Below are positions 140 through 23,380 of a stretch of 30,940 nt of DNA, piece after piece. The translations under genes and the position numbers were made by a program. The DNA comes from Syncephalis plumigaleata. Its lineage: Eukaryota > Zoopagomycota > Zoopagomycetes > Zoopagales > Piptocephalidaceae. The stretch lies in the NCBI GenBank assembly GCA_025201365.1, contig JAIXMF010000148.1, positions 1-30,940 of the forward strand. The letters run 5' to 3'. Below the pieces are notes generated by a model. It saw nothing but the letters and a program-made list of their open reading frames with translations. It did no database searches and was not told the origin of the DNA. Positions within the stretch are counted from its first letter, which is position 1, and the number at the start of each line of letters is the position of its first letter.

Positions 140-1385
140 ATGACTGCATCTTCTGTGTCGTTGCCTATCATTGATTTCGAAGCAATGCGCGATACCAATG
201 CTGACCCTGAAATACGTAAGCAAGTAGCACAACAAATCGATACCGCTTGTCGTCAATATGGGTAAATTAATCGTGAATAATAAAGAATAGCATCATCGTT
301 TATATTGATCATTCGTGGTATATATAGATTCTTCTATCTTATTAATCATGGTATTCCATTGGAATTGCAACAAGCTATACGAGAGCAAACGAAACAATTC
401 TTTGCCATGTCACTCGAGGAGAAACAAGCGTTGTACGGGCATTACGGCACGGTACGAGGTTATCACAACTATACAAACGATACGAAGTTAAGTGACAATC
501 TACAGCATGAAACATTGGCCATCGTTCAACCGCTATCCCATCATCGTAATGGCAAACCAATAGGCGATGAGGCAGCCATCGATGGTGCAGACATATTTGG
601 ACCGCAAATGAAGATTGATGACGCTGCACTACACGATGCCGTTTACAATTATCGTGCGGCTATCATAGAATTGGGTCGACGTATGATCAAGTTGATTGCC
701 ACCGAGTTGGGTGTCACATCATCATCATCATCATCGTTCGACTTCGAATGGCTTAACGATCTATTCTCGGTCATGCGTCTCAATTATTATCCAACTTGTG
801 AATCAATCAATGATGCATCCGATGTAGGCATGAGAGAACACACAGATATCGGGTAACTATAATAAACACATGCGATATTAATCACTGTAATACTAATTGC
901 CGCTTAGTATGTTGACATTTTTAGATCAGGTAATTAATTGATATAGGCATATATGGAAGTATAATATTAGTCTAATGGTTATCGATTCAGGACACACATG
1001 TTACTTCGTTGCAAATAAAGACAGCCGATGATGAATGGAAGTCGGTGGAACCGGTGCCCAATAGTTTAATCGTTAATCTAGGCGACATGATGGTGGTAAG
1101 CACATAATGAGCAATGCATTGTTAAGGATAGTAACAAGGATAATGTTGAATTAGACATGGTCTAATGGTCAGTATCGATCAGCGATGCATCGTGTTGTAC
1201 ATAAACACAATCAGAGTCGTCACTCGATTGCCACGTTCGTTGATCCTCGATTTGATGCAATTGTACCAACGCTAAAGGAGGCGATACCTGAAGGAGAAAC
1301 GGCACGCTATCCACCTGGATGTTACGGTGATACTGCGTTAAGCAAATTGAAGGATTTCTACGATTTAACTGCCAAAACGAATTGA
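140..1385 (+). CDS. 2-oxoglutarate/Fe(II)-dependent dioxygenase A, isopenicillin-N-synthase-like
   Basis: Five exons: 140-261, 328-852, 908-929, 991-1095, 1155-1385, giving 334 residues. All junctions keep frame. The N-terminus has the family's LPIIDFE strand and the later YLINHG motif. Iron ligands are visible as H212-x-D214 (EHTDIG) and distal H270 (SAMHRVV). The 2-oxoglutarate-binding R280-x-S282 (SRHS) is present, so the enzyme should be active. The family oxidises small molecules (hydroxylation, desaturation, ring closure) using Fe(II), O2 and, usually, 2-oxoglutarate. The substrate cannot be read from sequence. No signal peptide, so probably cytosolic. Exon 3 is only 22 bases. The second dioxygenase in this window (19364-20655) has the same five-exon layout and a 22-base third exon, so the two are paralogues. 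The gene converges on the minus-strand gene ending at 1661. Confidence 0.92.
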
Positions 1386-2787: not shown

Positions 2788-3297
2788 GTTATTCGTGATA
2801 TCTAGTAGAATCCAAAGATAGGATAGACGAGCGTGTATATGTGTGGATACCGAGAGAGATCAGAGAAAAAGAAAGTAGCAATATTACCGTCTTCATTTAT
2901 GTCGTAAACAGTTCAGATATGCCATTTTACTGAATAGAACGATGCTTCGACTGTAAACTGAGTATTGCGGAACAGAACAGCCTCTACTTCATATGTAAAT
3001 TGCCGTTAACAATATGACATACACTAGTTGTATTCTGTTTTTATTTTATCTTGATTATTCAGAATGCGCCATTCTATTACATCTTACTTTGAATAAAGTA
3101 ATGTTTCAGTTATAGCTCATGTACTAAAGAAAGGAGAAAACATTGCACGATATCATTTGCCATTATTAGCATGCTTACTATAGAAAAGGTGCTCATTCAA
3201 ACCAATCGTGTATTGGTTAACATGTTCATGTTCAATTGACCATTACATCGATACTAATACACTGCCATCCTTATGATATGGATTGATTTACATTCAG
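2788..3297. other. Intergenic stretch, no gene seen
   Basis: Lies between the start of the minus-strand secreted gene and the outer edge of the left inverted-repeat arm. No convincing ORF, RNA gene or tandem repeat. The last 60 bases (about 3235-3290) resemble about 1407-1492, which lies beyond the 3' end of the secreted gene. Confidence 0.6.
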
Positions 3298-3885
3298 CTA
3301 TACTCATGTACATGATGCTCAATACAACCATTTCAATAGAATGTAACCAGCCATGATGGTTATCACAGGTGTACGCGTCATCATTGATGTAGTATTCTGA
3401 AATGATGATGATGATGTGTAGATTCAGACAATTGACAGACCATGCGGTAACACAAAGGTCAGGCATTCACCATCATCTTCATTTATCGTCATAATGATTA
3501 AGCATGTGGACAGCTTTTCTCATATGGTGCATCTGTATGCAGTTAAAATGATAGCAACTCTTCCTTCCTTCTCACTAGCTGCACGCATAGACCAATAGCG
3601 ATAACCTGATATGTTACATCACTGTTCAGTTATGATATGTTCATGCGAAGGTGAACACCATGATGATACTGCAACCATGCATCGAACGACCTTGACAATT
3701 CAGATTAACGCTGCTCGCTCGCATGATGCATTTGGATTGCATTCGACAATTGACAGAGGCAGGCTGGACATGTATTCCTCCATCTAATTGGTACTCATCT
3801 GCTCGGTGTGTTACTACACCAATACTACCTGTCATTTGGTATTTGTCTGTCCATTGTATCCGTCAATGATCACTCACCTATTGAT

Positions 3886-3951
<66 letters not shown>
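3886..3951 (+). repeat. (TAC)22 microsatellite
   Basis: Twenty-two uninterrupted TAC units within the left inverted-repeat arm. The right arm has 23 units. This one-unit change accounts for the whole length difference between the arms. The poly-Tyr or poly-Thr ORFs that cross it are artefacts of the repeat. Confidence 0.97.
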
Positions 3952-3955
<4 letters not shown>

Positions 3956-4839
3956 TCCATAATACACTAGTCATGTATACAACAATCAATGCAATGATTA
4001 CAATAATATCAGCGTGCAATCAATCAATACAGAGTAGTCGATATGTTTGGATGTACGATACAGACAAGCAATACCAGTTGATGCAAGTGTACGCGTCAGC
4101 ATTCACCGAACATACCGATAGCTATCAATGATAATGGTGATACGATATGTTCTGGCCATTTGATTGATGTCTACATAATTACACTAATAGGAACAGGTAT
4201 TTCTAAGCTATCAGGGTGTTCGATATTACGAATAACCATACGTACAGCCAAGCCTCTTTTCATATGCACAGTCCCATATGCATAGCTTCCAGTCTGGAAA
4301 GGATCAATCAACAAGTTTAACGTCGTTTGACATTCACCAATAACAATGACATTGGTATGCGAATTCAGAGGTCATATGTTGTACGTCCATGCGGTGAGAG
4401 GGATACTACATGGATGCTGTTGGTTAATTCTCAACAGGAATAATGATATCATCATGCAAGCATGAACATAACGAATCAACTTGACATTGCTTAACTCTGA
4501 GCATTCAAACTACACTGCCGATTGACAAATGAAAGTTAGTGGTGCTTGTATTCTCAATATACTACTCACATGCAATGAATGACAATGCTGCTATACCGAT
4601 ATGCACCACTAACTTGCATGATGCTGCTAAAGCAGTATTGCACTATCATTCAGATAGCAAATCTACTGGTTAATATCCACATGGATGGCATGGTAAACGT
4701 GCAGTCTGATGGATGTTCCATCATTCCGAGTACAATCCATGTACAGATGGGAGTATCGTATGGAGATAGTCTGACTGTGGTCTATGGCCATCCTGCTATG
4801 TTCACTAGGAATATCCGCCATCATCACTATCATCTCGGC

Positions 4840-4846
4840 TATAAAT
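4840..4846 (+). promoter_or_regulatory. TATA-like box of the left-arm secreted gene
   Basis: TATAAAT lies about 170 bases before the ATG at 5016 and is followed by a pyrimidine-rich stretch, which fits a fungal promoter and 5' leader. The same box is duplicated in the right arm at 12794-12788. Assigned from sequence and position only. Confidence 0.45.
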
Positions 4847-5015
4847 CAATCACTTTTTGGCACACTCGACTTGCCATCTTCATACTCACTCTTCTACTCT
4901 ATTCTACTCTAGCTACTACTCTAGCTACTACTATTAGTACTCGTATATATTATTGCTCTGTATTCTCGTTTTAGTTTGTTTATCTGTCTACCTATTCCAC
5001 TAGACTAATATCAAC

Positions 5016-5432
5016 ATGAAGTTCTCTGCCGCTATCGCCATTGCCGTCGCCGTTGTCGCTGTCGCCAGCCTGGTCACCGTTGAAGCCAGGCCCAACAGGG
5101 TCCGTCGTGCTCCTCTAGCCGACAACATAAATGTCCAAGATAACGCCGTCGGTAAAGACGCTGTAGTCGCTGTCCCTGCTATCGTTAACGCTCTTGGTAA
5201 TAACCATGGCGATGTTGACAACGATCAACGCACTGGTCATCATTTACAACCTAATCACAATATTGCTGGACATTAAGCAAGCAAGACAAGGACATCATCA
5301 AGTAGATATATTGATACTCAAGGATGGATTGGTACTACAAGACCCTCATTTAGTGTCCATGCCATTCAAGTCATTATTCCTTGGACCAAAAAATATATCT
5401 ACAAATTCATCAATCAAACATTTATTGAATAA
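5016..5432 (+). CDS. Small secreted protein with dibasic processing site (left-arm copy, spliced to family C-terminal exon)
   Basis: Unspliced, the ORF is 86 residues and ends at 5276. A better model splices 5016-5196 to 5278-5432, giving 111 residues. The donor is GTAATA at 5197, there is a CTAAT branch-like sequence, and the acceptor TTAAG ends at 5277. The phases fit (1 then 2). Support is comparative: 5280-5432 aligns with the last exon of the minus-strand pseudogene at 14502-14350 in the same reading frame, sharing RPSFSVH, IQVIIPWTKKY and the terminal FIE-stop, with in-frame indels. The N-terminus is a signal peptide (AIAIAVAVVAVASLVTVEA), followed by NRVRR, a plausible Kex2-type cleavage site. 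There are no cysteines before the splice. The gene crosses the inner boundary of the inverted repeat and converges on etr1 72 bases away. Function unknown; probably a processed extracellular peptide. Confidence 0.65.
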
Positions 5433-7150: not shown

Positions 7151-8880
7151 GTATATCACAATAATGATCGTGCTTTAGTTCTTTAATGTCTCATAATGCA
7201 CGTTACAGCTGTCTTGGATGATTATTATTGACATGCAAGTATCGAATGCTTTATTCCACGTTGAATTGATTGTCATGTATTGCTTAATATCTGTGTTTAT
7301 TCGAGTATGTATCATGAATACGGTAATGTAAGCTTCGTATCATTTAATGACATTGATAACTTTGCTGCAATGGTATAATGCCGCCTATAGCTCAGCAACA
7401 AATAGATAAAAGCAACAAAGGATGGTGGTATAATGTTGAGCATTGCTAGTAAGTGTACTAGTAGGATTCAGTATGTGCTACACAAATCTATGAGCAATTG
7501 GGGAAGCTGTTGGTAGAGTAAACTACATGTGTATGTAAATGAATGAATGGATTTATTAGATCATCGAATATGTTGGTTATACAGCGTAATCAATAATGAT
7601 AATTGATCATATGAATCGGATGAACGCCGTATTGCATTATAGATATCATCGAGTATGTTCATGTTCTCTTGACACGTCCATATGATTGTGAGATCAGTCG
7701 ATGACATGCCGTGATAGATTGCAATCAGTACCAATAATCATACTAATGAAGACTAGGATCTGCTTGATTGACTGGAATGCACCGATGACTGATGCACAGG
7801 TCCCCCATGCCTATGACACATTTGACCGCTTTGCACTTTTGAATCATACGCCTTTCGTACGATGCACAATGCTCTTTGATGTCATCACATATACATTTCC
7901 TTCTTTCTTTTTTTCTTCCTTGTTGCAATTTTCCCGTTTCATTGGTTGGATAAGTACCTTGCTAGATCAGTCCAGTAAATACCACCCATCTTGGAGAGGA
8001 AGTATAGGTTCGTAGCATCATCATTGCAACTATTCTCGACTATTACTAGAATAAACAGTTTGCTTATATGTTTGATCTAATGGCTTCATACTAGTTATAC
8101 ACTCGCCGTATCGTTCTTGTTTTCAACATGATTATTATTATTGTGCTATCAATGCAAACTCTCTTTAATATTACCAAAGGTTTATTGAATACAATTATGA
8201 TGCTTTAGCCGTAAGCATAAGCAAGCAACTACCCAATAATAATCACTAGGCAGGAGACATGAGTACAAGTAACATCTTCTACAACATTGTTCAAACATTC
8301 CTAAAAATAACCATGCTCTTGCTTCACTAATAGTCCTCTAGTGATTTCACAAGAACAAATATCGAGTAAATATCATGAGCCATTAACAGTTTCTTTCCCA
8401 ATAGGTACAGAAAAATATGTATGATGAATGGAATAATGACTGGTTTATGTTACAGATTGGACCAATAAATATATGTGAAGCACAATGTATCAATATACGA
8501 ACAAATGGTAAAGGTACTCTTGAGGAGTACATATACAACATGAAACATCCATTGCAGTCATAGCTAGGATTGCAAGCACATGTGACGGAATGTCAAATTG
8601 GTATTGGCAGGACTTGAAATAACCACTACAGTACATACCTAATCCTGAATAACTTGATGCAACGCCATATTGACGTGACAAATGTGGCCATAGATGGCAC
8701 GATGTTGAAGCATTGACAGCCCCACTCCAAACCTCTTATAACGTCGAGAATAATCTGCTGTAGATGATGGTTCAAGCGCCGCCCTTTTATTTTATTTTGT
8801 TTTACAATATCTTATCATCAGTTTTACGTTTATACAATCAATACAGCACGTCACGTTTCCTCAACCATTATCTAGTAGAC
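7151..8880. other. Long intergenic region with one dispersed repeat
   Basis: No gene found in either strand. It contains a dispersed repeat copy (about 7605-7740). The ORFs at 7701-8015 and 8490-8681 lack homology and splice context. An in-frame ATG at 8764 could extend the next gene, but that would bury its signal peptide, so 8764-8880 is read as 5' leader. Confidence 0.55.
7605..7740 (+). repeat. Dispersed direct repeat, copy 1
   Basis: About 136 bases that match 11419-11557 in the same orientation, roughly 85% identical by eye. The best-conserved cores are GTATTGCATTATAGATATCA and TTGACACGTCCATATGA. The two copies bracket the pseudopeptidase gene. No coding capacity, poly-A tail or terminal inverted repeat was seen, so the type of element is unknown. 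Confidence 0.8.
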
Positions 8881-11260
8881 ATGTTCTGCTATCGTAATAC
8901 AAGCAAGTTTGTAGCACTTGCCTACTTTGCAATACTTATTGGATTGGCCGTACCATTACACGCACTTGTAGGGGCTCAATCGGAACAAGCACCGGTGGCC
9001 AAGACAAAACCATTCCAGCACAAGTACCATGGCGAGGTTATCGATGATCCTTACCAGTGGATAAAGGATGAAGGCCAGGACAGTACAGATGTGAAAGAGT
9101 ACCTCGATGCCGAGAAGGTCTATGCTCAACAAGTGCTCAACAAGGATCAACAGCTTAAGGATCAGATTTATAGTGAACTGGTCAAAACGACAAGCCAATC
9201 TCATGTAATATTATTTCGATATATTGGAAACTATAGCTATTATTCTAAGCTGCAACCTCATACTAAATTTCCTGTCTGCTACCGAAAGAAGATAGGCGAA
9301 GCGAATGCACCCGAAGAAGTTGTATTGGATACCAACACACTACCTGAGGGATCCAGAGGCGTATTTGATGTAAAGCCAAACAGCGATCATACCATAGTTG
9401 TTTTTAAAGCATACAATTCCATTAAGCGGCTATCCAGCTTGCAATTCAGGGATCTCGCTTCTGGAAAGTTACTTCCAGACAAGGTTGAGAGTACTATCTT
9501 TTGGTTTGAATGGAGTGCCACCGGAAATAGCATTCTATACACAGCTTATAGTCGAGATGGTCCTCGCCTAATGCGACACACTATGGGTACTTCTGCAGAT
9601 AAAGATAGCATCATTCATACCGATCAAAAAGCACAATCTATTATCATAAAGAAATCCAGCAGCAATCAATACTTTTTCATAAACGTATATCAAAAAGATG
9701 GTAAAACACAATACTTTTATTTGGATGCCACCAGTGATACTGCAAGTAAAATGGTGCCTATTAAAGCATTGTTATCGCCTGGATCGTATTTGGAGTTACA
9801 CCATTTGAACAAGCAGTTCTTACTTGTAGCCGAGTCTAAGAATACCAAGAAGAAGACAGCATACGTATGCGATATCGACAAGCTAAATGATAAAACCGCG
9901 CATAAACCAGTGCTGGAAAATGTTGACTTTGAAAATAGTCGTATGGCCATCTTCAGAAATCATATTGCAATCTTCAATTACGTTGCAGTCCCTCAGCAAG
10001 TCACCGTATACGACTATGACAGCGAAGGAAGATTACAGCCTAATGCAAAGTCACACAATATCGAGTTCCCAGCTAAATCATACAAGGCGGTAAATGCAGG
10101 AGTAGCCGATTATAACAGTGATACGCTCACATTTGAGTATTCGTCATTGATCACACCTCCAACAACCTATTCCTACAACATGGCAACGAAGAAGGCAACG
10201 AAGACATATATAGATTCAATAGCCGACTATAATGAATCGGATTATGTTACCGAGTTTATCTATGCTAAAGGCAAGCCAGATAGCAAGGGAAATCAACCTG
10301 ATATTCCTATTACCATTGCCTACAAGCGTGGAATGAATAAGAATGGTGAGAATCCTGCTTGGGTAATGGGCAATGGTGGTGGTGCTTCAATGTTCGAAGT
10401 TGACTTTAGAGCAGAGTATGTATCGTTGCTCAATCGTGGATTTGTCTGTGCAATCGCCCATAGCAGAAGAACAGAAGACCCAGAGTTGACTGGAGATGAC
10501 ATAGCCACGGTGCACAATAATAATCAAGCTTTTATTGATGATTTCATGGCTGCCACTAATGCCTTGGTATCCGAGAAGTATACCAGCCATAATCTAATGG
10601 TAGTTGAAGGTTATAACGATGGTTCTACAATTATTGGTGCTGCACTCAATAAGCAACCTGATATTGCCAAGGTGGCCATTATCGACAGTAAGTGTAAAGA
10701 TCGTACATTGATCAATGATGAATGCTAATTTGATATTATAGGACCATTTTTAAATGTCCTGAATAGAATAATGGATCAAAACAGTAATCGCGGATCCGTA
10801 CGTGTGCCTGCATGGGGTAATCCAGATAAATCGATCGATGAATATAAAGCCATTAGATCATATTCACCATACGAAAACATCAAGTCTAATGCCATATATC
10901 CCAATATACTTTTGATTAACTATCTCGAGAACATGTTTTCATCATACTGGGGTAAGTGTGATCAATCAGTTTACTTATTAATTCGTACTAACTAATGCCA
11001 CTTACGATAGATGGTGCTAAATGGGTGGCCAAACTACGTGCTGCTACTGCTCAAAGTGCAAAGAATAGCACTAATCCACATACGATTGTTATGGAAGTGC
11101 GTGATGATGAAAAACTAGGTAAGCAATTGCAACGTAACATATGTATGCTGTATACTAACAAGTCATTTTAGGTGATTTATCCCTTGATCAGATTTCCACT
11201 AAATTAGCATACGCTATTGGCAAGCTAGGAAAGGCAGTCAAACCGTTGAATTCTGCTTAA
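8881..11260 (+). CDS. Secreted oligopeptidase-B/prolyl-oligopeptidase homologue lacking the catalytic triad
   Basis: Exons 8881-10687, 10742-10951, 11011-11118 and 11172-11260 give 737 residues, normal family length. The ATG at 8881 is chosen because it starts a signal peptide (FVALAYFAILIGLAVPLHALV). The beta-propeller start is recognisable (KYHGEVIDDPYQWIKDEG), and the hydrolase domain aligns through SLLNRGFVCAIAHSRR, SYSPYENI and SYWDGAKWVAKLR. The active site is gone. The nucleophile motif G-x-S-x-G-G reads G577-Y-N579-D-G-S (Ser to Asn). The acid position in L-x-D reads L-E-N666 (Asp to Asn). The C-terminal His motif (AGHGG in active relatives) is replaced by acidic sequence (EVRDDEKLGD) with no histidine. 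The RGGGE loop reads RRTED. The frame is intact across four exons, so it is probably maintained as a pseudoenzyme: a secreted binding or scaffold protein. That role is inference. Confidence 0.88.
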
Positions 11261-12354
11261 TACATGGATTATTTGTTGATCAATAGGAATAAAGCTTACT
11301 TTTTTATTCTATTCTTACATTGTTGAACATGCATACATTAGAATGATAATGTCAAACGTATGCCATTTGATTTCCATGTAGTAAACGCGTATGTGTGAGG
11401 GAATGACACTTGAGTAATGATCGTATTCATCGGATGAATGTCGTATTGCATTATAGATATCATCAAGTATGTTCATGCTTTATTGACACGTCCATATGAC
11501 TGTGGGATCATTCGATGGCATGTCATGATGCATTGCAATCAGTATTGATCACATCAAATGATAATGAAATGAGCAATGACAGATGACATACAATTGAACA
11601 TGTCATGTCGATGTCATGATAATGAATGACATTTGTATGAATACGATAGAGATATTTATTGACTCATAGTAGTAGTAATAGTAATATGACTTGTAATGCT
11701 TGTTCTTATTATGGTGCAGCTTATAATAATAGAAATGAAATCAAGCAGCTACAAGAATCATATGAGTAGCCATATGAATGCTAACAACTTTACTAATTTC
11801 TTTGCTCATTCACTTATCGTAGCTCGCGCGTTCTACTCATTCCTCCTGCTTATTACACTCATTCGCTCCGTATCCCTTACATAGTACACTCGCTCCTTCT
11901 GCTTAGTATATTCGTTCACTTCACTCTACTTTTGTATTCCTTGCATAATATACTCATTCACTTCTCTAAGCCCTCGTGTTCTACCCTTTCTGCTTTGCTC
12001 TTTACTCATTCACTTCGTTCATTCCTCTCATAGCTTTCTCCCTTCGCATCGACTTAAGGTCAAATGGCTTTCGTTCTAAAATACTGAAATTATTCTGCTT
12101 TTCTTCTTTCCCACGCTTCAAAATACAGTATACTTGGCCGTCGCTTCCTCAATCGTGAAAAGAGCCCATAAAATCGCATTTCGCATTTCGCTGGAGTGCT
12201 ACATTGCTCATGCTGGATAATGGCGTATCCATAATCCGCTGTTGTGCTTAGCTGGCAATAAATTTATTACCATTCCATTACAAAATTGTACACATTTATT
12301 ACTAAATAGTCTCTTTTGATATCATTGGATAGAGGCATGTAAGCTTTATTATAA
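11261..12354. other. Intergenic region, pyrimidine-rich, with one dispersed repeat
   Basis: Contains repeat copy 2 (11419-11557) and, at about 11805-12010, an irregular pyrimidine-rich stretch with recurring TTCACT, ACACTCGCTCC and CATTCACTTC words. No gene was recognised. AATAAA motifs near 12256 and 12350, read on the minus strand, could serve as 3' processing signals for the right-arm gene copy. Confidence 0.5.
11419..11557 (+). repeat. Dispersed direct repeat, copy 2
   Basis: Second copy of the repeat at 7605-7740, same orientation, about 85% identical by eye with small indels. It starts about 160 bases after the pseudopeptidase stop codon. Confidence 0.8.
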
Positions 12355-12357
12355 TGC

Positions 12358-12618
12358 TTAATGTCCAGCAATATTGTGATTAGGTTGTAAATGATGACCA
12401 GTGCGTTGATCGTTGTCAACATCGCCATGATTTCTACCAAGAGCGTTAACGATAGCAGGGACAGCGACTACAGCGTCTTTACCGACGGCGTTATCTTGGA
12501 CATTTATGTTGTCGGCTAGAGGAGCACGACGGACCCTGTTGGGCCTGGCTTCAACGGTGACCAGGCTGGCGACAGCGACAACGGCGACGGCAATGGCGAT
12601 AGCGGCAGAGAACTTCAT
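12358..12618 (-). CDS. Truncated right-arm copy of the small secreted gene
   Basis: Identical to the left-arm gene from its promoter through the signal peptide and dibasic site, but the duplicated segment ends where the last exon should start, so the conserved C-terminal exon is missing. Read without splicing it encodes 86 residues ending at 12358 (stop 12360-12358), with one amino-acid change from the left copy's unspliced frame (Asn to Arg). The former splice donor at 12437 has changed from GTAATA to GTAGAA. It may be a working shortened secreted protein or a pseudogene. AATAAA-like 3' signals occur just beyond it on the minus strand. Confidence 0.55.
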   Translation of the reverse strand: MKFSAAIAIAVAVVAVASLVTVEARPNRVRRAPLADNINVQDNAVGKDAVVAVPAIVNALGRNHGDVDNDQRTGHHLQPNHNIAGH

Positions 12619-12787
12619 GTTGATATTAGTCTAGTGGAATAGGTAGACAGATAAACAAACTAAAACGAGAATACAGAGCAATAATATATACGAGTACTAA
12701 TAGTAGTAGCTAGAGTAGTAGCTAGAGTAGAATAGAGTAGAAGAGTGAGTATGAAGATGGCAAGTCGAGTGTGCCAAAAAGTGATTG

Positions 12788-12794
12788 ATTTATA
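12788..12794 (-). promoter_or_regulatory. TATA-like box of the right-arm copy
   Basis: Exact duplicate of the left-arm TATAAAT, about 170 bases upstream of the ATG at 12618. The arm includes this whole upstream region, so the truncated copy keeps its promoter. Confidence 0.45.
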
Positions 12795-13678
12795 GCCGAG
12801 ATGATAGTGATGATGGCGGATATTCCTAGTGAACATAGCAGGATGGCCATAGACCACAGTCAGACTATCTCCATACGATACTCCCATCTGTACATGGATT
12901 GTACTCGGAATGATGGAACATCCATCAGACTGCACGTTTACCATGCCATCCATGTGGATATTAACCAGTAGATTTGCTATCTGAATGATAGTGCAATACT
13001 GCTTTAGCAGCATCATGCAAGTTAGTGGTGCATATCGGTATAGCAGCATTGTCATTCATTGCATGTGAGTAGTATATTGAGAATACAAGCACCACTAACT
13101 TTCATTTGTCAATCGGCAGTGTAGTTTGAATGCTCAGAGTTAAGCAATGTCAAGTTGATTCGTTATGTTCATGCTTGCATGATGATATCATTATTCCTGT
13201 TGAGAATTAACCAACAGCATCCATGTAGTATCCCTCTCACCGCATGGACGTACAACATATGACCTCTGAATTCGCATACCAATGTCATTGTTATTGGTGA
13301 ATGTCAAACGACGTTAAACTTGTTGATTGATCCTTTCCAGACTGGAAGCTATGCATATGGGACTGTGCATATGAAAAGAGGCTTGGCTGTACGTATGGTT
13401 ATTCGTAATATCGAACACCCTGATAGCTTAGAAATACCTGTTCCTATTAGTGTAATTATGTAGACATCAATCAAATGGCCAGAACATATCGTATCACCAT
13501 TATCATTGATAGCTATCGGTATGTTCGGTGAATGCTGACGCGTACACTTGCATCAACTGGTATTGCTTGTCTGTATCGTACATCCAAACATATCGACTAC
13601 TCTGTATTGATTGATTGCACGCTGATATTATTGTAATCATTGCATTGATTGTTGTATACATGACTAGTGTATTATGGA

Positions 13679-13682
<4 letters not shown>

Positions 13683-13751
<69 letters not shown>
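13683..13751 (-). repeat. (TAC)23 microsatellite, right arm
   Basis: Twenty-three TAC units on the minus strand (GTA on plus). One unit longer than the left-arm copy. Confidence 0.97.
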
Positions 13752-14349
13752 ATCAATAGGTGAGTGATCATTGACGGATACAATGGACAGACAAATACCA
13801 AATGACAGGTAGTATTGGTGTAGTAACACACCGAGCAGATGAGTACCAATTAGATGGAGGAATACATGTCCAGCCTGCCTCTGTCAATTGTCGAATGCAA
13901 TCCAAATGCATCATGCGAGCGAGCAGCGTTAATCTGAATTGTCAAGGTCGTTCGATGCATGGTTGCAGTATCATCATGGTGTTCACCTTCGCATGAACAT
14001 ATCATAACTGAACAGTGATGTAACATATCAGGTTATCGCTATTGGTCTATGCGTGCAGCTAGTGAGAAGGAAGGAAGAGTTGCTATCATTTTAACTGCAT
14101 ACAGATGCACCATATGAGAAAAGCTGTCCACATGCTTAATCATTATGACGATAAATGAAGATGATGGTGAATGCCTGACCTTTGTGTTACCGCATGGTCT
14201 GTCAATTGTCTGAATCTACACATCATCATCATCATTTCAGAATACTACATCAATGATGACGCGTACACCTGTGATAACCATCATGGCTGGTTACATTCTA
14301 TTGAAATGGTTGTATTGAGCATCATGTACATGAGTATAGATTAACATAT

Positions 14350-19363: not shown

Positions 19364-20655
19364 ATGACCACCACTACTATTCCGATTATCGACTTTGCTC
19401 CCTTCATCAATAAGCAGTCAAGCGAGAGTGAGCGACTTGATATCGCAAAGCAAATCGATGATGCCTGTCGCAATTACGGGTAAGGTAGTTTATTTTGTAT
19501 TCATTCCTGTTTAATAATTGTTCAACTCTATCGTGGATGATAGTTTCTTCCATCTTATTAATCATGGTCTATCTCGAGAACAGTATGATGGTATTCATGC
19601 CATTGCACAAAGGTTTTTTGCACAATCAGAAGAGGATAAACAGCAGCACGCTGTCGAGGGAGCATTTCGCGGTTACATGCGTCGTGTCAATAGCAAGCAC
19701 GGTAATCGCGAGAATAGCTATGAGACATTTAGTTTCTACCCGTCGGTACAGCATTTCGTGAATGGAAAACCAACGACCGCGTATGAACAGATCGATGCCA
19801 ATGCGGATATACTCGGTCCACAGAATACGTTTCTTGATCCGGAAATCAAGCAAGCCATGTTGACCTATCGTGCTGAGTTGATAGACATTGCCGTACAACT
19901 GGTCAAGGCCATTGCCATGGTGCATCATGGTGATATTACGCAATTTGATTGGATGCGCGAAGCATTCTGCGGTATTCGTCTTAGTTGCTATCCCACACTC
20001 GATTCGAAAATAGTCGATGAAGGCGGTTACAGTCTATCTGCTCATTCTGATTTCGGGTAGGATATTCTTCATGCGAATGACTCGTGTAATGCTAGACAAT
20101 ACTAATGATTGATATGAATAGATTCTTGACTTTATTAAATCAAGTAAATAACCAATAGCAAATGACTAAATCATTGCTATCCGTTATTTGATGATTAACC
20201 ATTACGACGACTGTTGCTTATAGGATCCCAATGTTAGCGCGCTAGAGGTGTTCGATGATCAAGCACGAGAATGGTATAAAGTTGATCCGATTCCCTATAG
20301 TCTTGTGATAAATGTCGGTGACATGGCCAGAGTAAGTTATATATATATATATATATGTGCTTACATAAACATGATCTATGTAACAACTATGAATACGACT
20401 AATAACCTCTACTAGCTATGGTCGAATGGAACGTATAAAGCGGCCGTACATCGAGTAATCCATTTGGGTAATGAAATGCGCTACTCTGTTCCACTTTTCT
20501 ATGAGCCACGATTTGATGCTATTATGGAACCATTCCCAAATTTTGTAAATAGTACCAATCATAAATCCGAGTATAATCCCGTACGTTTTGGCGATTACGT
20601 GTTGAATCGATTGAAGAAGTTCTACAACGATGAAGCTACGAATGACAGCAACTAA
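19364..20655 (+). CDS. 2-oxoglutarate/Fe(II)-dependent dioxygenase B, isopenicillin-N-synthase-like
   Basis: Exons 19364-19479, 19544-20056, 20122-20143, 20224-20331 and 20416-20655 give 332 residues. It starts TTTIPIIDFAPF and continues FFHLINHGL, the usual N-terminal motifs. Iron ligands H206-x-D208 (AHSDFG) and H265 (AAVHRVI) and the cosubstrate motif R275-x-S277 (MRYSVPLF) are all present, so it should be catalytically competent. Substrate unknown. The exon boundaries fall at the same places and phases as in dioxygenase A (140-1385), including the 22-base exon 3 that encodes FLTLLNQ here and MLTFLDQ there. This marks an old duplication on the same strand about 19 kb apart. It ends 172 bases from the carnitine acetyltransferase gene, which converges on it. 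Confidence 0.93.
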
Positions 20656-20827: not shown

Positions 20828-23380
20828 TTACAATTTGGCCTTAGCTGCCTCGGCGGCCAAACTTGCCTCCATTACTTGACGCATATCGTCGGCTGCTTCC
20901 GCCAAATAATGGGTCATTTGCTTGCTGCCTAGCTTCATGCTAGTGACGTTAAAGTGAAGACTATTCTCCTTGATCATGTAGGCAACGCCATAACCATCGG
21001 GTACGACCTCACCCCAACCGTAGCCATCAAAGTATTCGCTAGTGAGTTGAGAAGTCGAAAGGTACCAGTGACACGACTCGGGATAAGCGGGATCAGTGAA
21101 TATCTCGGGTTTCTCTTCGTTAGACTTTAGTAGCATACGTAAACCTATGAAGAGTACGAATACAAATACGAATGATTAATCATGGATATTCAAGAAAGAA
21201 GAAAGGAAATCGCTTTATAATTCAAGTGATTATTTACCAAATAGATGACGATCAACGCCACGTCCTTCTACGGCATCCGACATGTATTTAACATGGGATG
21301 TAACAGCTTGACGTAGTGCAGCAGCTTTTTTATCGGTCTAGTTCAAATGTATATGTATAAGTAAGACATCTTGTATTTGGATAACTTGCAATTATTATAT
21401 ACTTACCGGTAATGCGGGATCTTCCATTGCTTTAACGAAAGCGACAGAATCGCTCGAGACGGTACGACAAGTCTCCGTACGACCATGCTTGAATTTACGC
21501 GTTTGAGCCGACTCGTAAGTGGGACGACTCACGCCGTACTTCTTAAAGTAGGCCAGTTGAATGACCATTTGTACATAGGCATCGGGTGACATGCGGAATC
21601 GTTTAATTAGGTTTTTACCGTAAGTCGAATACGCCAACACGGATAATTCATGCTTGCCAACTAGTTGGTCAAAGTTTCGCTCGGCAGTACTAATGGCTTG
21701 CACCACCTTGTCGTCCAGTTCAAAGTCGAGACGCGTTGGAGCTGGAAGGGTCGTGTTTGCCGTTAGACTACCATGGTTTACTTGATTCTTGGCCAATCTA
21801 CACGAATCTATCATAAGTATATATATACGCGCTATAGCCGAGATAACATTTCACTTACCGATCGCAAACGGTGTCATTCAAACGACTTAGCGGTGTGCCA
21901 TCCACACCGGAATGCTAGTGAGATAGACGCGTATCAATGATAAGCATATAGAAGCAAGCTTGTATTTATGTCTACATATATGTGTAGGCAGGTAGGTTAC
22001 TCACCTCGATAATGACACCGGCCTTGCCATTTTCGAATACAACATACTGCAACGACTTGTCAAAGTACCGATTACGACCATCGCCGTGCCAACAAGCGGT
22101 GCTTACTTCATCGCGTGTCACAGGCGAGGTGTCATCGAGACAAAGTAGAAACACGGCACTCTCGAGTTTCTCGAGTACTGTCTCATTACGCGGGGATACA
22201 GCAAGTAGTTGTCGGCGTACATCGGTCCATGTATCACGATGTTCTGTCGTTAGGGCACCGATAGCCTGAGCCTTACGATCACCAGCCTGCGAGATAATAC
22301 GATTCAATTGTCTATCACGATCCAAGTGATATTGACAATGAATGACATTAGTAGTGACAATATTATTGCACATTAGCGAATACTTACAGTTCAATATCGG
22401 CCGTTGATAATCGTTTACCATTTTGTACTAGGTCAAAAACAAATACTTGATTCTTACGCATCACCGCCAAATGCTGGTGTGTAGTCGGATCGAATGATCG
22501 TAATTTATCCGATGGTTTCACGGGATAACGACATGTATTGAAGATGTTACGATAGGCCAAACTACATAATGGATTCTTCTTGGTATATTCCGGCTCTAGA
22601 GTCTCACTAATAAATGATCGTGCATTAGATATATATATATTGATACATATACAGGTAGAGCAGCAATCATGGATTCGAGCATTACACTTACTTTACCACT
22701 TGTTCTCGGAAATCCATGGCTGCAGTAACGATGCTGGCAGCACGCGATGCTTGAGCACGACGAAGACGATCATCTTGGAAGGCAAAGAAGAAGCTAACAT
22801 TAACAACGATGGGGTCACGATAGCCCATGTAGGCCACTTCATTCCACCATTCCTCGAGCCAGTTATCGACCTTTGGATCGGCAGCACGTTCTTGCAATCG
22901 TTTCTGTAGTTGCTCGCCTAGACCACCGGGTTGTTGAAACTTTTCCACCACTTCCTCGGTACGTGCAAATGCCGTATCATCCAGTAATGGACGAACAGTA
23001 CGTAGATATTTCGCACACGTCTCCTTGAGGTCTGGCACCGGCAAATGAGGCAACTTATCCTGGAAAGCGTACAATGGACGAGACATATTTACTGTATCTG
23101 ACACTATTTGTTGCGCGGTAGCAGTTGCAGTAGAGTATTTGTTGCTAGGTGATCCGGTAGACTGACTGGCTGTGACAGAAGAATAGGCAGCGCCTTGAAA
23201 TGGACGACTAATAAACTTTGTGGAAGGCTAAGCGATAATGTAGTCGGCGTATTTATTTATATATGCTTAATTAGCAAGTATATATATACGGTATAGTCGT
23301 GTACTTACCACGAACCGCGAAGTTGACGAACGAGAAGCAAGCGACAACGACCGACCAGCACGGAAGGCAGAACTCAACAT
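20828..23380 (-). CDS. CAT2: Carnitine O-acetyltransferase, mitochondrial/peroxisomal
   Basis: Eight exons (23380-23309, 23227-22692, 22606-22388, 22311-22005, 21914-21859, 21797-21407, 21337-21238, 21144-20828) give 665 residues; yeast Cat2 is 670. It transfers acetyl groups between CoA and carnitine so that acetyl units can leave mitochondria and peroxisomes. Landmarks: LPVPDLKETCAKYL near the start, NWLEEWWNEVAYMGYRDP, catalytic H379 in EHSGVDGTPLSRLND at the exon 4/5 junction, and STSQLTSEYFDGYGWGEVVP with DGYGVAY near the C-terminus. The N-terminus is a typical mitochondrial presequence (LSSAFRAGRSLSLASRSS). The last three residues are AKL, a PTS1 peroxisomal signal. An internal Met72 (MSRPLYAFQDKLP) could start a presequence-free form. 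A dual-targeted product, as in yeast Cat2, is likely. Confidence 0.96.

Follow-up and report, generated by a model that had tools for sequence, protein, structure and literature searches.

A mosaic family of predicted pseudoproteases on the S9A peptidase fold in a fungal genome

The window, by which we mean the whole stretch of 30,940 nucleotides that was analysed, carries a gene for a protein of the S9A prolyl oligopeptidase/oligopeptidase B family (Table 1). The spliced model, in which all introns are GT-AG, upholds the 737 open codons in four exons described in the first-pass annotation. Membership of S9A follows from homology, as the first exon matches both PF02897 (propeller, E=5e-59) and, weakly, PF00326 (S9 peptidase domain, E=1.7e-8). 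The NCBIfam oligopeptidase B profile also matches the protein (E=4e-43), with a score of 148 bits that lies far under the equivalog cut-off of 1313 bits. Judged by eye, the N-terminus resembles a signal peptide, with a hydrophobic run at residues 10-26 followed by HALVGA; a start that looks like a signal peptide is seen, again by eye, in all 13 full-length members of the family described below.

The AlphaFold model covers the 602 residues of exon 1 (39-row alignment; mean pLDDT 83.6, pTM 0.78), exons 2-4 lying outside it. Past residue 32, pLDDT drops below 50 in one segment alone, 531-542, which corresponds to the former RGGGE loop. In a Foldseek search with the same residues, the best eight solved matches were all oligopeptidase B (TM by query length 0.75 for 7zjz and 0.79 for 4bp8), and the structural check proposed with the first-pass annotation therefore finds the oligopeptidase B fold retained in residues 1-602. 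The window protein shares its two-domain fold with oligopeptidase B of MEROPS S9A (PDB 7zjz, 4bp8, 2xe4) but differs from it in the signal-peptide-like start and in the loss of the catalytic triad, the oxyanion Tyr and the RGGGE loop.

Table 1. Coordinates in the window of the pseudo-oligopeptidase gene, its replaced catalytic positions and its flanking repeats.
Feature	Position	Strand	Basis or remark
Pseudo-oligopeptidase coding span, 4 exons, 737 aa + TAA	8881..11261	+	Spliced model; exon layout common to 12 other full-length paralogues
Exon 1: signal peptide (by eye), propeller, first part of alpha/beta-hydrolase domain	8881..10687	+	PF02897, PF00326; AlphaFold model
Putative signal peptide, ~residues 1-33	8881..8979	+	By eye; helix 7-23 in model
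Exon 2	10742..10951	+	Spliced model
Exon 3	11011..11118	+	Spliced model
Exon 4 including TAA	11172..11261	+	Spliced model
Asn498 at oxyanion Tyr position (YGAYG motif lost)	10372..10374	+	Alignment; coordinates from spliced model
RRTED replacing RGGGE, residues 529-533; start of variable stretch that runs to ~549	10465..10479	+	Alignment; low model confidence 531-542
Asn579 (AAC) at catalytic Ser position	10615..10617	+	Alignment
Asn666 (AAC) at catalytic Asp position	10930..10932	+	Alignment
Leu708 (CTA) at catalytic His position	11115..11117	+	Alignment
Upstream flank; whole or part common to 16/17 other family loci, 74-95% identity	8000..8880	+	Sequence comparison
134-bp direct repeat bracketing gene, left copy	7597..7730	.	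Also matched on flanks of several other family loci
134-bp direct repeat, right copy (85%)	11411..11544	.	Repeat comparison
Near-perfect 2-kb inverted repeat, left arm; aligned as two gap-free segments (1394 and 660 nt, both 100%)	3293..5279	.	Dispersed repeat
2-kb inverted repeat, right arm	12355..14344	.	Repeat comparison

The inverted repeat is a dispersed one, with dozens of partial copies elsewhere in the genome, and the arrangement of a family gene between its arms recurs at the C223 paralogue (540-551 kb). The family gene is flanked on each side by one of two separate DIOX_N frames (non-haem dioxygenase N-terminal; window 284-856 and 19518-20060), and on the minus strand at 21972-23227 two frames match successive portions of the choline/carnitine acyltransferase family, apparently as exons of one gene. 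The genome encodes chitin synthases and an EF-1alpha with the opisthokont insertion, which we take to be diagnostic; the organism is therefore a fungus.

The catalytic positions were read from an alignment of the window protein with 24 comparison rows, 12 of them paralogues from its own genome and 12 taken from 79 bacterial homologues. The Ser and Asp columns hold Ser and Asp in 24/24 of these rows, and the His column holds His in 23/24 (the remaining row, L043, is gapped). The window protein has Asn579, Asn666 and Leu708 at these positions, Leu708 standing within the acidic run RDDEKLGD. The alignment therefore confirms the substitutions of Ser and Asp, the acidic sequence at the His motif and the altered RGGGE loop that the first-pass annotation had reported. 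There is no His in the window protein downstream of residue 696, so that a shifted alignment cannot provide a catalytic His in that loop. With the triad (N579, N666, L708), the RGGGE-type loop (RRTED) and, as had not been noted before, the oxyanion Tyr (N498) of an active S9A peptidase all replaced, the window protein is, judged by its sequence, not an enzyme.

A tblastn search with window exon 1 against the 32.6-Mb genome retrieved many paralogues. We modelled 17 other loci of the window's kind, of which 12 are full-length, one (C34) is cut by a contig end, three are disrupted (C1_2385, C2_352, C362_254) and one (C338) is a contig-end fragment. The disrupted copies and the C338 fragment were left out of all alignments, which leaves 14 usable members (the window, the 12 full-length copies and C34_32) and at least 14 paralogues in the genome; these counts are lower bounds, the genome search scoring the best candidates alone. 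The reading frame is open in all 13 full-length members, and their four-exon layout is identical. C164 has three extra residues near the His loop; they depend on a third intron modelled as shorter, at 44 nt, and could be an artefact of the model. The contig-end-cut C34_32 was also left out of the PHI-type test, the pooled dN/dS, the silent-divergence test, the site models and the diversity comparison. Four remnant loci (L132, L136, L137, L138) consist of pieces of family flanks and 3' coding parts with the gene body absent, and family segments therefore seem also to be lost by internal deletion.

A complete triad is found in none of the 14 members. The Ser column holds N in five members, S in four, D in four and I in one; the Asp column N in six, D in four, E in two and S in two; and the His column Q in ten, L in three and I in one. 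Ser is therefore kept in 4/14 and Asp in 4/14, both together in three members (C1_2725, C34_32 and C319_26). The catalytic His is lost from every member, as are the oxyanion Tyr, two of the RGGGE glycines and the Gly preceding the His. The first-pass annotation had proposed a search for orthologues sharing the substitutions and for an active paralogue in the genome. Within this genome, the close paralogues share the loss, with His gone throughout and Ser and Asp varying between members, and triad-bearing paralogues are present as well. Of the latter, 12 were modelled, two of them from disrupted copies; the models A_C329 and A_C351 are rough. The genome's S9 matches are more numerous (58 stretches).

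In a tree of 34 proteins (without A_C157, A_C329, A_C79 and L043), the 14 members fall together in a single clade (100/100), whose stem is 0.96 changes per column long, and this clade joins seven of the nine triad-bearing paralogues (100/99). Conservation was counted with A_C57 also removed. Conservation of at least 95% across the 19 active rows was seen in 53 columns; at least 13/14 members keep 28 of these, no member keeps 14 others, and the remaining 11 are mixed. All 14 lost columns fall within the catalytic surroundings (residues 496-503, 529-549, 575-583, 663-670 and 703-709), against two of the 28 kept ones. This confinement, together with the single clade, suggests a probable single loss of catalysis that preceded the expansion of the family, the scaffold being held. 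For the His, the oxyanion Tyr and the RGGGE loop, the tree makes loss in the common ancestor the simplest explanation, and the recent, tight clade points to a restriction of the family to one lineage.

Pairwise dN/dS ranges from 0.24 to 0.58 over 91 pairs (median 0.46), and the pooled value for 13 members is 0.457 (bootstrap 0.396-0.527), all estimated from paralogues of one genome. Single-base changes that make a stop amount to 4.7% in the window coding sequence, so that neutral drift at the distances observed (dS to the window up to ~0.41) should have left many stops. Therefore, the open frames, the shared exon layout and the pooled dN/dS of 0.46 argue that the protein is maintained. The earlier reading of a retained pseudoenzyme rather than a dying gene is thus supported by the paralogue dN/dS below 1, the intact-triad paralogues and the shared loss. 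The protein may act as a decoy, an inhibitor or a scaffold, the roles suggested in the same annotation.

The family members are mosaics whose blocks have been exchanged by gene conversion or recombination. We applied a PHI-type test to 743 informative sites: the observed value was 0.286, the permutations averaged 0.478 and 0/2000 of them were as low. Incompatibility grows with distance. In 57/91 pairs the longest identical run exceeds those of all 100 shuffles. The window gene and C223_543 are 98-100% identical in 6/14 listed 150-nt blocks, yet 63% identical at codons 501-550, where the window gene resembles C364_18 (96%) and C135_184 (95%) more than it does overall (87% and 86%). The loops round the dead site come in distinct versions, each common to several members, with few indels. 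Two pairs of loci on different contigs (C135_184/C364_18, that is L016/L019, and C135_307/C168_1, that is L017/L018) are 96-97% identical and may be recent duplicates or haplotype copies. Since three sister copies are disrupted, gene birth and gene death are both continuing in the family.

Few parts of the protein vary as much as the dead site. In the 53-residue catalytic surroundings the mean pairwise difference within the family is 0.48, against 0.22 elsewhere, a contrast reached by 2/736 circular shifts; the residue set was picked around known motifs but after inspection of the alignment, which makes this shift test optimistic. The pattern is the reverse in the seven active paralogues (0.40 in these residues, 0.66 elsewhere) and likewise among 11 bacterial rows (0.25, 0.53). 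What active enzymes conserve most thus varies in the family about twice as much as the remainder of the protein. Other variable stretches exist at residues 101-125 and 176-200, both away from the catalytic site, and at 601-625, and the dead site is therefore not the sole one. The dN/dS is 0.66 (0.46-0.93) in the catalytic surroundings and 0.43 elsewhere, whereas silent divergence there is ordinary (0.166 against 0.139, with 144/736 shifts as high); this gives no support to the idea that the loop versions are older than the remainder of the gene. Over 48 windows, amino-acid and silent divergence correlate with a Spearman coefficient of 0.48. Amino-acid change is thus freer at the dead site, the cause being either relaxed constraint or diversifying selection.

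Site models (M1a/M2a) gave likelihood ratios of 18-19 in three of nine blocks (201-300, 401-495 and 656-737). Of 12 shorter, partly overlapping blocks, ten gave ratios of at most 3.73, and the two highest stood at 8.62 and 7.39. As the ratios mostly fade in the shorter blocks and recombination inflates such tests, positive selection was dropped as a claim, and relaxed constraint at the dead site is consequently a possible explanation of its variability. Indeed, about two thirds of the sites in residues 496-560 fit the neutral class, and a positive class brings no gain.

On balance, we favour by a little the view that the window gene is a member of a lineage-specific family of S9A pseudoproteases, secreted by appearance and probably binding proteins. 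The absence of the His, of the oxyanion Tyr and of the RGGGE loop from every member is most simply traced to a common ancestor. The copies have multiplied as segments, with shared flanks, and have swapped blocks by gene conversion or recombination; purifying selection, as estimated from the paralogues, has kept the scaffold. The product most likely binds a peptide or protein outside the cell without cleaving it; the ligand might be, for example, an inhibitor, a factor from host or prey, or else a substrate of one of the active sister enzymes. More speculatively, the exchanged loops round the dead site could confer member-specific binding preferences. A stronger form of this idea, in which the former active site has become a hypervariable recognition surface and the fungus maintains a set of dead peptidases and moves their active-site loops from one paralogue to another by gene conversion, so as to bind differing partners (hosts, rivals or their inhibitors), appears doubtful to us at present. 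If it were true, the family would be a fungal counterpart of shuffled recognition families.

A different division of labour within the protein is tentatively conceivable. The dead site could be unused, with the function residing in a conserved surface elsewhere or in a regulatory or stabilising pairing with an active sister peptidase, and the loop variability would then reflect relaxed constraint spread by conversion. The loop dN/dS, raised yet below 1, the ordinary silent divergence and the predominance of neutral-class sites all favour this reading, as do 28 residues that are invariant across the family and missing from all 19 active rows compared. In the inactivated proteases of the scabies mite, as described in the parts of the source consulted, mutagenesis places the inhibitory site on a conserved face remote from the residual active site (PMC4031079), a warning against taking variable loops as the binding face. 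Nevertheless, the loop indels are few for unconstrained sequence, and the sharing of each distinct loop version among several members likewise speaks against an idle site.

Another account, which we disfavour as improbable, is the following: a dying gene could have been passively amplified by a duplicating segment, its frames persisting because the copies are young or re-copied. The three disrupted copies and four remnant loci, the flanks common to 16/17 other loci, the dispersed-repeat arms that enclose the window and C223 copies, and the five family loci within ~7 kb of a contig end (C164, C168, C365, C34 and C338) are all consistent with such amplification. However, it accords poorly with a dN/dS of 0.46 at dS values to the window of up to ~0.41, with the lack of any stop in 13/13 full-length members and with the 350/737 residues that are invariant across the family. 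Residual or altered catalysis, finally, would make the family one of unusual hydrolases, in which C1_2725, C34_32 and C319_26 use another His, for example that at 712. These three members that keep Ser and Asp do each carry His at position 712, four residues beyond the catalytic one, but the loss of the oxyanion Tyr, the two RGGGE glycines and the Gly preceding the His in 14/14, and a window member without Ser, Asp or any His after residue 696, render this explanation very improbable.

Proteins of the S9 fold with roles independent of catalysis include DPP6/DPP10, which are S9B pseudopeptidases, and PREPL/PREP. These are membrane or intracellular proteins with few genes per genome, and to our knowledge none has a hypervariable dead site. 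Pseudoprotease families as such are already known; the present one, secreted by appearance, is built on the S9A fold in a fungus and shows mosaic exchange. In the open-access literature we found no oligopeptidase B pseudoenzyme, and no S9A pseudoprotease family of this kind appeared in the titles or abstract beginnings among the matches listed. A large survey of fungal serine proteases, in the parts consulted, dismissed fragmented and likely inactive homologues (PMC5567314), which may explain why such families go unreported. Dead-enzyme families are readily overlooked, and a whole mosaic S9A pseudoprotease family could be missed in this way; about 14 paralogues and their triad-bearing sisters in one genome offer a natural experiment on the conversion of an enzyme's site.

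The closest likeness is to SMIPP-S and SMIPP-C of the scabies mite. According to the portions of the sources consulted, SMIPP-S comprises 33 serine members, complement inhibitors located in gut and faeces, and the inactivated proteases are available outside the animal's cells (PMC4031079, PMC5956821). SMIPP-S has a known function, complement inhibition; that of the fungal family is a proposed one. The SMIPPs are built on folds of serine and cysteine proteases distinct from S9A and belong to an animal parasite rather than a fungus. Block exchange is present in the fungal family but did not come up in the consulted portions of the SMIPP sources, and PMC5956821 nowhere uses the term "gene conversion". 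Nevertheless, both are multigene families, the fungal one probably lineage-specific as the SMIPPs are, of dead protease paralogues alongside active relatives: in the fungus, 14 members without a full triad lie in one clade, beside triad-bearing paralogues.
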